A stretch of DNA of 64,000 nt from positions 2,913,001-2,977,000 of the forward strand of contig NC_009901.1 in the NCBI RefSeq assembly GCF_000018285.1, given 5' to 3'. Of the stretch, positions 10,110 through 61,578 are shown in pieces. A program made the position numbers and the translations under genes. The stretch's first letter is position 1; each line of letters starts with the position of its first letter. The notes below the pieces were generated by a model. The model worked only from the letters and a program-made list of their open reading frames with translations, did not search any database and was not told the DNA's origin. The stretch is from Shewanella pealeana ATCC 700345 (lineage in GTDB: Bacteria > Pseudomonadota > Gammaproteobacteria > Enterobacterales > Shewanellaceae).

Positions 10110-10508
10110 GTAAAAGATCCACCTTCTGAAGAAGGTGGCTTTGCCCATCTGTTATAAAGCAGACTCCCTAAAAGGGAGCTTTCCTACCGTGCGTTAACAA
10201 GACGCCGTAAATATATCCCTATAGGCTCTACTAAATCATCCCTGATTTAGAAGCTTGTACCGCACTATTAGCAAAGCTCAAGTATCACTTGAGTTAATAA
10301 GCTATATTTAAATGAACTTATAAGCCGTGTATCGCATGGATGCGATAAGCGAGCCTCCATGGACACTTTCTCTTCAAACAAAAGTCGGCGTGCTTATAAG
10401 TCGTTAAACATTGCCTTACTCCGCAATGCCATTGAACGTACTTCAGGCAGAGCCTAATTAATGATAACGGCCCCTACTGAAGTAGGTGGTTTAGGGCTGA
10501 AAACAAAA
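10110..10508 (+). mobile_element. Palindrome-ended repeat element, copy 1 (non-autonomous, IS200/IS605-like)
   Basis: A 399-base element that recurs at about 96% identity in inverse orientation at 54819-55214. It begins with GTAAAAGATCC and the stem-loop CCACCTTCTGAAGAAGGTGG (10119-10138). It ends with the stem-loop family CCACCTACTGAAGTAGGTGG, here degraded on its left arm to GGCCCCTACT, followed by TTTAGGGCTGAAAACAAAA. The ends are hairpins, not terminal inverted repeats, and no target duplication is seen, as in IS200/IS605 transposons. There is no transposase. Internal stems include ACTCCC/GGGAGC, CTAAATCA/TGATTTAG, CTCAAG/CTTGAG and ATCGCAT/ATGCGAT, so the middle could be a structured RNA. 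A 32-codon frame lies at 10359-10457. Confidence 0.7.
10359..10457 (+). other. Conserved 32-codon frame inside repeat copy 1
   Basis: Runs from an ATG to a TAA and encodes a basic peptide that ends NAIERTSGRA. The same frame is present in copy 2 with one synonymous change (GCC/GCT) and no amino-acid change. There is no Shine-Dalgarno. It could be a relic of a transposon protein C-terminus or chance, since the two copies are closely related overall. Confidence 0.3.
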
Positions 10509-10554
10509 TGAGCACACACCTCACGCGTACCCTACACTTAATTTATTACGGACA

Positions 10555-16428: not shown

Positions 16429-16505
16429 TGGCGGAGCGGACGGGACTCGAACCCGCGACCCCCGGCGTGACAGGCCGGTATTCTAACCAACTGAACTACC
16501 GCTCC
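16429..16505 (-). tRNA. tRNA-Asp (GTC), copy 4 of the transcript
   Basis: A 77-base gene with encoded CCA. The minus strand begins GGAGCGGTAGTTCAGTTGG and has the anticodon arm CCGGCCTGTCACGCCGG with anticodon GTC and T arm GCGGGTTCGAGTCCCGT. Same sequence as the other three copies. It is last in transcription order, directly before the terminator. Confidence 0.97.
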
Positions 16506-16776
16506 AAAACTTTTCTAGAAACCATTAATTCTGATTTCTAAAGTCATTGCTATGTCACTAACATGACTTACGACTAACTAAACTAGCTAGCTTTTACTAA
16601 ATTGGCGGAGCGGACGGGACTCGAACCCGCGACCCCCGGCGTGACAGGCCGGTATTCTAACCAACTGAACTACCGCTCCAAAACTTTTCTAGAAACCATT
16701 AATTCTGATTTCTAAAGTCATTGCTATGTCACTAACATGACTTACGACTAACTAAACTAGCTAGCTTTTACTAAAT
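16506..16776. repeat. Tandem duplication unit of the tRNA-Asp cluster
   Basis: The spacer at 16506-16602 is repeated base for base at 16680-16776, and with the intervening identical tRNA gene this gives a 174-base period. Within the spacer a CTAGCTAG motif is noticeable. Confidence 0.9.
16603..16679 (-). tRNA. tRNA-Asp (GTC), copy 3 of the transcript
   Basis: A 77-base gene including CCA, identical to its neighbours. It and the following 97-base spacer form one unit of a perfect 174-base tandem duplication with the copy at 16777. Confidence 0.97.
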
Positions 16777-16853
16777 TGGCGGAGCGGACGGGACTCGAAC
16801 CCGCGACCCCCGGCGTGACAGGCCGGTATTCTAACCAACTGAACTACCGCTCC
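16777..16853 (-). tRNA. tRNA-Asp (GTC), copy 2 of the transcript
   Basis: A 77-base gene including CCA, identical to the others. The 97-base spacer 16680-16776 after it is identical to 16506-16602, which shows a recent duplication. Confidence 0.97.
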
Positions 16854-16936
16854 AAAACTTTACTAGAAATCAATCGTGTCAATTTCCAATGTTACTCGTT
16901 ATGTCACTAACAAATAACTAAAATTTAGTACTTGAT

Positions 16937-17013
16937 TGGCGGAGCGGACGGGACTCGAACCCGCGACCCCCGGCGTGACAGGCCGGTATTCTAACCAACT
17001 GAACTACCGCTCC
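16937..17013 (-). tRNA. tRNA-Asp (GTC), copy 1 of the transcript
   Basis: A 77-base gene including CCA, first in the transcript and directly behind the promoter at 17030-17058. Its 83-base downstream spacer is only partly similar to the other spacers, so it is the older copy. A tRNA-Asp gene (aspV) also lies next to dnaQ in E. coli. Confidence 0.97.
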
Positions 17014-54818: not shown

Positions 54819-55214
54819 TTTTGTTTTCAGCCCTAAACCACCTACTTCAGTAGGTGGTTATCATCAATTAGGCTCTGCCTGAAGTACGTTCAATAGCATT
54901 GCGGAGTAAGGCAATGTTTAACGACTTATAAGCACGCCGACTTTTGTTTGAAGAGAAAGTGTCCATGGAGGCGAGCTTAGCATCCATGCGATACACGGCT
55001 TATAAGTTCATTTAAACATAGCTTATTAACTCAAGTGATACGTGAGCTTTACTAATAGTGCGGTACAAGCTTCTAAATCAGGGATGATTTAGTAGAGCCT
55101 ATAGGGATATATTTACGGCGTCTTGTTAACGCACGGTAGAAAAGCTCCCTTTTAGGGAGTCTACTTTTATAACAGATGGGCAAAGCCACCTTCTTCAGAA
55201 GGTGGATCTTTTAC
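54819..55214 (-). mobile_element. Palindrome-ended repeat element, copy 2
   Basis: A 396-base copy of the element at 10110, in inverse orientation and about 96% identical. Its ends are better preserved: both CCACCTACTGAAGTAGGTGG and CCACCTTCTGAAGAAGGTGG (on the element's top strand) are perfect. The flanks after the ends differ from those of copy 1, so the boundaries GTAAAAGA and GAAAACAAAA are well supported. It lies between the hrpA terminator and the nap promoter. No transposase is present. Confidence 0.72.
54868..54966 (-). other. Conserved 32-codon frame inside repeat copy 2
   Basis: Same predicted peptide as in copy 1 (ends NAIERTSGRA), one synonymous change, no Shine-Dalgarno. Reported because it stays open in both copies. 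Coding status is unproved. Confidence 0.3.
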
Positions 55215-60747: not shown

Positions 60748-60795
60748 GTAAAAGAGCCACCTACTGAAGTAAGTGGTTTAGGGCTGAAAACAAAA
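60748..60795 (+). mobile_element. Minimal 48-base derivative of the palindrome-ended element
   Basis: The left boundary GTAAAAGAGCC of the 399-base element joins directly to the right stem-loop (CCACCTACTGAAGTAAGTGG, one arm mutated) and tail TTTAGGGCTGAAAACAAAA. It is what remains if the two end stem-loops recombine and the middle is lost. Its tail runs into the T-run of the gpt terminator. Confidence 0.65.
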
Positions 60796-60835: not shown

Positions 60836-61291
60836 TTACTTACAAAGTGGCTCTCTAAAGCTCACGCCTGTATCCCAAGGCTGCTCAATCCATGTGTCTT
60901 GTGCGATATCAACGATATAATCATCGACTAATGGCTTACCGGCAGGTTTTGCACAAACGGTCACAAACTTAGCCTTAGGGTAAATTTCACGAACGATTTT
61001 TGCTGTCGAACCACTATCAACTAAATCATCAATAACGATAAAGCCTTCACCGTCGCCTGGTGCTTGCTTAATGATTTTAGTTTCACGTTGGTGATCATGA
61101 TCGTAGCTAGAGATACAGATGGTATCTACATTACGAATACCTAATTCGCGAGCTAGAATAGCCGCAGGTACTAATCCGCCGCGGCTTACCGCAATAATGC
61201 CTGTCCACTGCTCTGCAGGTAATAGGCGCTCAGCCAACTCACGGGTATAACCTTGCATTTGATCCCAAGTGATCAGAAATTTCTTGCTCAT
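60836..61291 (-). CDS. gpt: Xanthine-guanine phosphoribosyltransferase
   Basis: A 151-residue protein that matches E. coli Gpt (152) throughout, including the PRPP-binding loop [16 protein letters not shown] near 80-95, [21 protein letters not shown] and [12 protein letters not shown]. It salvages xanthine and guanine to their monophosphates. The ATG at 61291 ([11 protein letters not shown]) follows AAAGG with normal spacing. A TTG two codons earlier is unlikely. Confidence 0.96.
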
Positions 61292-61578
61292 GTGCAACCT
61301 TTTATGCGTATTCGCTATTTTAGGGGAAAGAGATTGCGCGGCATTTTGGCTTGTTATTCAGATCCATACAAATTTATGTTCGTGATGTATTTCACAGATT
61401 TCGATTAACTTAGCAATGATAGGGTGCAGCATTGAAAGAGTTAGATAAAAGCGTTACACAATCGGTAACGACTCTATAGGTTATTGTTAGTGATTATGTT
61501 GGAACTCAATGCTTGTGATAGGTTAAAACTGACTTGCAATCGACCTAGCTTATTAAAATATTTTACAGCGGTATTGCT

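Follow-up and report, generated by a model that had tools for sequence, protein, structure and literature searches.

Two inverse copies of a 399-nt sequence with hairpin ends lie in the 64,000-nt stretch of the Shewanella pealeana ATCC 700345 genome analysed here (contig NC_009901.1, positions 2,913,001 to 2,977,000; termed the window and numbered from its first nucleotide), and they raise the question of what kind of element they represent, which protein moves it and what determines where it inserts. The first-pass annotation, made from the nucleotide sequence alone, had taken them for an undescribed-looking type of non-autonomous IS200/IS605-like element, possibly with an omega- or HEARO-like RNA in its middle.

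Copies in the window and their ends

The two copies, first drawn at 10110-10508 and 54819-55214, are in opposite orientation and 96% identical, as annotated. The right boundary drawn for the 399-nt unit probably takes in about 6 nt of target (CAAAA...). With this boundary shifted from 10508 by means of empty target sites of related complete ISs, copy 1 is a long non-autonomous IS200-group element at 10110-10502 on the minus strand, and copy 2 is its inversely oriented counterpart at 54825-55214 on the plus strand; these limits hold to within 1 nt, and the junction is ambiguous by one T. On the transposing strand of copy 1 (minus), the right end follows ...TTTTAC at 10110 and the left end lies at about 10502. 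Both annotated stem-loops, CCACCTTCTGAAGAAGGTGG and CCACCTACTGAAGTAGGTGG, were found, the second being imperfect in copy 1. The right-end (RE) hairpin of copy 1 (10119-10138, minus strand) scores as terminator-like together with its tail ATCTTTTAC, and the imperfect left-end (LE) hairpin lies at 10471-10489 (minus strand); in copy 2, the LE hairpin is at 54838-54857 and the RE hairpin, again terminator-like with its tail, at 55186-55205 (both plus strand). The hairpins are subterminal and lie on one strand in the same sense, and perfect terminal inverted repeats are absent. In copy 1, the LE hairpin is immediately preceded on its 5′ side by TAAA (10490-10493, minus strand), which is complementary to the target TTTA/TTTG and is proposed to act as a guide by analogy with IS608, as described in PMC5934647. 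The settings given earlier, just before a chemoreceptor gene for copy 1 and between hrpA and nap for copy 2, are consistent with the neighbouring ORFs as read by eye. Elsewhere in the window, four tRNA genes stand in a row on the minus strand (16432-17013) with equal Rfam scores (70.5 bits).

Complete insertion sequences with the same ends

Repeats matching the final ~65 bases of the element were present elsewhere in the genus (at most five candidates scored per genome). They often lay at contig ends, as insertion sequences (ISs) do, and the shared left end had 82-93% identity over about query positions 333-399 among the matches listed. One of these loci, L050, is a complete IS of ~615 nt. On its transposing strand, TTTTCAGCCCTAAA at the start is followed by the hairpin CCACCTACTTCAGTAGGTGG, a second small hairpin and a transposase gene (144 aa), after which come the hairpin CCACCTTCTTCAGAAGGTGG and the tail ATTCTTTAC. 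The left end of ~60 nt that is common to the element and the complete IS corresponds to 10442-10502 (minus strand) in copy 1 and includes the second small hairpin (AGGC...GCCT); the right-end hairpin region is common to both as well. The partner transposase belongs to the IS200-type Y1 HUH enzymes (PF01797, 132 bits; NF033573, 148 bits), with HVH at residue 61 and YVRHQ at residue 126, and IS608 TnpA is among its solved relatives. Of 117 genus genomes, 34 contained homologues (E ≤ 0.001), one of them 13 copies, and at least 19 of the 34 had a near full-length homologue with at least 60% identity. At the same threshold, the genome of S. pealeana ATCC 700345 had none.

As the element has the ends of a complete IS and no such transposase was found in its own genome, it is a non-autonomous derivative, and we infer that TnpA mobilises it in trans. 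The hairpin-ended, non-autonomous IS200/IS605-type element of the first-pass annotation was thus borne out by complete ISs with the same ends, and these make it no unknown type, the ends being those of an IS200-group IS with one Y1 transposase. The expected TnpA with matching ends was not found in the own genome and was found in complete ISs of relatives in the genus. Complete partner ISs that were read carry TnpA only, without TnpB. The TnpB profile (PF07282) had no match in the own genome, with its control detected; the IscB profile (PF14239) gave no signal in the genome, its control being likewise silent. In one genome (G047:C1), 4 of 13 tnpA copies carry one in-frame TGA each, and on these reading frames an inactive copy may have been multiplied in trans.

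Copies, solos and derivatives

The count of two copies was far too low. In the complete genome, a single contig of 5.17 Mb, 38 matches to the element were found. Sixteen long copies are among them, ten detected as one match and six as two matches each, and nine of the long copies have 49-64 extra nt near positions 117-131. About 12 further units in the genome are solos, in which a single hairpin stands between the right-end tail and the left-end flank. The solo in the window (60748-60789, minus strand) adjoins a hairpin with a T-tract (-9.8 kcal/mol), downstream of the minus-strand ORF 60836-61297. Some solos have LE-type and others RE-type stems, and because both types occur, deletion between the two end hairpins, which resemble each other, best accounts for the solos. 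In the solo search, L181 was a false match and L173 was matched at the wrong place, though its solo was seen separately.

Across 197 genomes of the order (at most three candidates scored per genome), the long matches listed were only in the own genus, and the ends alone recurred in other genera. Other cores lie between the same IS200 ends at L053, L054, L056, L058, L060 and L108, also behind terminators, and L060 is an internal-deletion derivative that by eye retains a remnant of the start of tnpA. The insertion at L010 is common to other genomes (L134, L138); therefore, some copies are old. Relatives without the element at the L010 site and in the hrpA-nap gap indicate that the element there was inserted or lost, and a base-exact junction for the element itself was not obtained because the flanks of these relatives have diverged too far.

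Left ends behind intrinsic terminators

When the copies were lined up, most left ends abutted a terminator hairpin with its T-tract, a different one each time. The same placement was found in complete ISs, including subgroups with only 62-70% identical transposases, in one complete IS of E. fergusonii and at three of five E. coli loci; at the remaining two (L166, L167), the left end has decayed and a terminator is lacking. The element strand is the T-tract strand and the coding strand of the gene that the terminator serves. Most copies, complete or defective, lie outside genes, with their left end abutting the T-tract of an intrinsic terminator.

This placement was measured as the folding energy of the 45 nt upstream of the left end. 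In a first set of 77 sites, -8 kcal/mol or lower was reached by 31 of 32 complete ISs (drawn from 11 genus genomes), 15 of 16 elements of the own genome and 28 of 29 elements of relatives, and -10 kcal/mol or lower by 72 of the 77. At the latter threshold, a control taken from one genome, 464 kb of the own one, gave 34/71 for intergenic TTTTTRTT sites, 71/155 for TTTTTRT and 98/349 for TTTTRT, and the window alone gave 15/50 for TTTTRT and 6/18 for TTTTTRT (Fisher p 3e-10 to 9e-28 for the first set against the controls). The T-tract alone therefore fails to explain the pattern (72/77 against 34/71), though terminators are common among such sites.

A second set was found by the transposase alone in named genomes of more than 20 genera, including Pseudoalteromonas, Alteromonas, Vibrio, Enterovibrio, Thaumasiovibrio, Endozoicomonas, Ferrimonas, Serratia, Kosakonia, Kluyvera and Xenorhabdus. 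From the best 80 of 300 loci, 7 without a usable left end and 1 repeat were removed, and of the 72 counted, 64 reached -10 kcal/mol and 67 reached -8 kcal/mol. The genomes number fewer than 72, since one genome each of Thaumasiovibrio, Vibrio coralliilyticus and Serratia rubidaea supplied several loci. The second set firms the terminator rule and leaves the choice among mechanisms unchanged. Eight of the 11 clean solos also reach -10 kcal/mol, the others having -9.8, -9.5 and -7.4 kcal/mol.

The exceptions speak against an absolute rule. Both window copies are atypical: copy 1 adjoins, on the target side of its LE, a weak terminator-like hairpin (10510-10532, minus strand, -10.5 kcal/mol) and lies ahead of a plus-strand gene, not behind a minus-strand gene; copy 2 has no terminator hairpin at its left end (-3.4 kcal/mol) and faces the region upstream of nap-like ORFs. 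The other misses of the first set are L094, L098, L162 and L064. Clear misses of the second set are L219, L223, L239 and L245, joined by L234 (Shewanella decolorationis S12), whose 45-nt flank is identical to that of L064 from G045 and which thus repeats that site; in L233, L279 and L294 the left end was probably misread. Loci of both sets were chosen as best matches, and L010 and L032 are not independent, sharing one terminator by descent. Left out of the first set were L041, which has no left end (hence 29 of 30 loci of relatives), L063 and L070 (assembly gaps), L166 and L167, L069, L073 and L077 (same sites as L123, L126 and L128), and L071, L072, L075, L076, L079, L080-L090, L042, L043, L102 and L104. 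Part of the preference could reflect the survival of harmless insertions.

Exact junction

The IS200-group element of E. coli was located behind the ompX terminator (L163), behind trhN on an IncHI-type plasmid (L164) and behind reiD (L165), and one E. coli chromosome (CUPF09) had nine places in the search for it. Exact empty counterparts exist for the insertions at ompX and trhN. Behind ompX, the empty site is GGCGGATTTTTGT^TTTTAAGG, and the IS begins with TGTTATCCC and ends with TCTTTTAC. At trhN, the corresponding site reads CCCCTTTTGTTAT^TTTG, in which the cut lies three bases farther from the T-tract. Both complete ISs are inserted cleanly within the T-rich tail, with nothing duplicated and nothing lost, and the cut may be placed one T further on. 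Insertion without target duplication, which had been expected from the family, was thus shown for two complete relatives and only approximately for the element itself. Where IS copies within a single genome have ends that are equal in every other respect, the R preceding the cut is G in some and A in others; it therefore belongs to the target, which is why the earlier right boundary probably holds about 6 nt of target. In a base table, which is blurred by one-base shifts of the pattern and was used for the right flank only, T comes first in 52 of 57.

The structured middle

The folding energy of the 399 nt lies well below that of shuffled sequences (z -6.2 on the plus and -6.0 on the minus strand; none of 100 shuffles as low). 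Cores alone fold less: 4 of 10 strand values from five cores of this family, and 10 of 22 from all eleven cores, were weaker than z -2, compared with 5 of 6 for three 270-nt stretches of the window and with -2.0 and -2.8 for tnpA. Both ends were obtained for 41 of 50 loci, and 20 copies with a similar core and without a large insert were compared. Across 93 predicted pairs, 96.3% of cells hold standard pairs. Changes on both sides were found in 7 of the 93 pairs (28 of 500 shuffles reach seven) and in 22 cells, against 8.2 in shuffles (0 of 500 as high), with much lower values in slid controls; on either strand, covariation contributes almost nothing to the energy (+0.1 and -0.8 kcal/mol). Maintained pairing of the middle thus has modest support in these alignments, and no more than modest because related sequences inflate such counts; RNA and single-stranded DNA give the same signal. 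The structured RNA suggested by the first-pass annotation accordingly stands as to structure, with modest covariation, and is unsupported as to an omega or HEARO nature, since no Rfam family reached its gathering score within the element in a covariance search, the own genome has no TnpB and the partner ISs that were read carry TnpA only.

One module, at 10148-10257 (plus strand), resembles Ysr224 (RF02770). It aligns over the whole model, with 32.4 bits against a gathering score of 70, and contains the hairpin CTAAATCA-TCCC-TGATTTAG. In the own genome, the Ysr224 model had six places at E 0.001 (150 of 465 candidates scored), all within copies of the element. Ysr224 is listed among the most frequently annotated bacterial sRNA families in PMC9029176, and such a frequency would suit an interspersed repeat; here the module differs from Ysr224 in lying within a transposable element. 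At L044-L048, L051 and L059, no IS ends were seen by eye within 250 nt of the Ysr224-like module. They represent another intergenic repeat, present in several copies elsewhere in the genus, and in some, arms resembling CACCTGCCTTGAGCTTTTGCAAGC / GCTTGCACAGCTCAAAGCAAGTGAG surround a Ysr224-like core. A second module (10304-10411) is a long hairpin, ATTTAAATGAACTTATAAGCC ... GGCGTGCTTATAAGTCGTTAAACAT, with inner stems. We read the core as a composite of captured repeats.

Several other candidates were set aside. The second module was dropped as an independent repeat, as its occurrence at L023 may be a decayed copy of the element. TCCC/GGGA tetraloop hairpins were not retained as a code of their own (they account for 2 of the 12 four-base loops of the window, both within copies of the element, and for 8 of 60 in the loci), nor were GGA loops of the CsrA type as the function of the core, GGA loops being present on both strands. 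Coding content was rejected, with only ORFs of 20-51 aa overlapping copy 1, as was a promoter, with 0 sites in copy 1 (1.3 expected) and 1 site in copy 2 (1.1 expected).

Proposed mechanism and alternatives

The joint reading, which we consider very probable, is that of a non-autonomous IS200-group derivative, moved in trans by the TnpA of a partner IS since lost from the genome, inserting behind the T-tracts of terminators and carrying a captured middle. TnpA would act on the T-tract strand in single-stranded form, cutting it immediately after the T-tract (..R-T^T), and the TAAA of the LE would pair with the T-tract as a guide; subgroups have AAAA or GAAA in its place, which are likewise complementary to the T-tract. 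For known Y1 transposases, a guide 5′ of the end hairpin is described as pairing with the tetranucleotide at the cut site (PMC5934647). The preference for a hairpin would arise if TnpA, or access to the target, treats a terminator hairpin with its T-rich tail like the right end of the element itself. We favour target choice by this resemblance, since the right end also consists of a hairpin followed by a T-rich tail and scores as terminator-like in both copies. More specifically, and only tentatively, at a little under an even chance, the transposase of this IS200 subgroup may select targets by DNA structure, the terminator being a mimic of the right end, the cut falling several nt downstream and TAAA pairing as the guide. 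The structured middle would be captured cargo, with any function hypothetical, and deletion between the similar end hairpins would produce the solos.

The main rival to right-end resemblance is exposure coupled to transcription, whereby RNA polymerase paused at the terminator presents the non-template T-tract to TnpA as single-stranded DNA. The element lies on the T-tract strand, which is also the coding strand of the gene whose transcription the terminator ends, and Y1 transposases are described as using single-stranded DNA in PMC6006769; the same source, however, gives the lagging-strand template as the target of IS608 and ISDra2, and a cruciform or a single-stranded hairpin would yield the same pattern, so that we regard this exposure as possible but somewhat unlikely. 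Unlikelier still is that a short T-rich target (TTTTRT) suffices, selection having purged other insertions and intergenic T-tracts often being terminators. Nearly half of the intergenic TTTTTRTT sites (34/71) are already terminator-like, and known IS200/IS605 members are described as needing only a tetra- or pentanucleotide (PMC5934647, PMC7290912), but the comparison with 72/77 leaves odds of about 16, and the excess is also seen in the complete ISs from 11 genus genomes and, over more than 20 genera, at 64 of 72 sites.

Two further explanations concern the element rather than its target. A functional structured RNA in the middle, an sRNA or a guide, might be the reason for its persistence, as the fold of the whole element (z about -6), the paired cells across the 93 predicted pairs, the 22 cells changed on both sides and the Ysr224-like module would suggest. 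Against this stand the seven pairs with both-side changes, a number that shuffles also reach, the inflation of such counts by related copies, the covariation energies, the 4 of 10 strand values weaker than z -2 among the five cores, promoter-like sites at chance level and a position behind terminators that disfavours transcription, and we think this improbable. Least credible is mobilisation by the lone RAYT-like Y1 gene (G000:C1:4036364-4036687; L031 1453-2151, plus strand), which would make the element a REP-type repeat. It is the sole PF01797 gene found in the own genome, encoding 232 aa (NF047646, 71 bits, under the cut-off of 80), and the solos look REP-like; yet no matching end hairpins and no repeats of this element were found in the 3.3 kb read around it (about 1.5 kb on each side), and the ends belong to an IS200-group IS, on which grounds it was rejected.

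Relation to known elements and significance

The IS200 group of the IS200/IS605 family includes IS200, IS1541 and IS1004. The partner IS resembles this group in its single Y1 TnpA (PF01797, NF033573), its length of ~615 nt, its subterminal hairpins and the lack of inverted repeats and target duplication, and it was not matched to an ISfinder name; the 399-nt element departs from the group in having no tnpA and a foreign structured middle. The palindrome-associated transposable elements (PATEs) of IS605 are likewise described as ends-only and presumed to be mobilised in trans (PMC7290912), but the present element is multi-copy, with a conserved composite core and a clear terminator target. IS608 follows a tetranucleotide rule, in contrast to the hairpin-plus-guide choice proposed here. 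Group IIC introns also insert after intrinsic terminators, and are RNA-based retroelements; no intron family matched in the window. For IS1541, an IS200-like element, Odaert et al. in 1998 reportedly found terminator-like stem-loops at 8 of 14 sites in Yersinia and proposed terminator-like hot spots; added here are the junction, orientation, strength, controls, the range over many genera and the inheritance by defective copies and solos. Apart from that report, no paper on this element or on IS200-group elements that target terminators was among the matches listed in a literature search. Both the element family and the rule, sharp, oriented and extending over many genera, look new, and the kind of element is known.

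As most insertions neither break genes nor catch read-through, a minimal transposon with one protein appears to have a safe-harbour rule. If the proposed structural selection is true, hairpin-plus-guide target choice would be a built-in safe-harbour rule for complete ISs, defective copies and solos across gammaproteobacteria. A hairpin that is read directly would extend the guide-pairing model of Y1 transposases and would suggest tools for terminator-directed insertion. In Shewanella, Vibrio, Pseudoalteromonas and enterobacteria, the finding also accounts for an easily overlooked class of repeats situated behind genes, and complete relatives of the element occur in many marine and gut bacteria.
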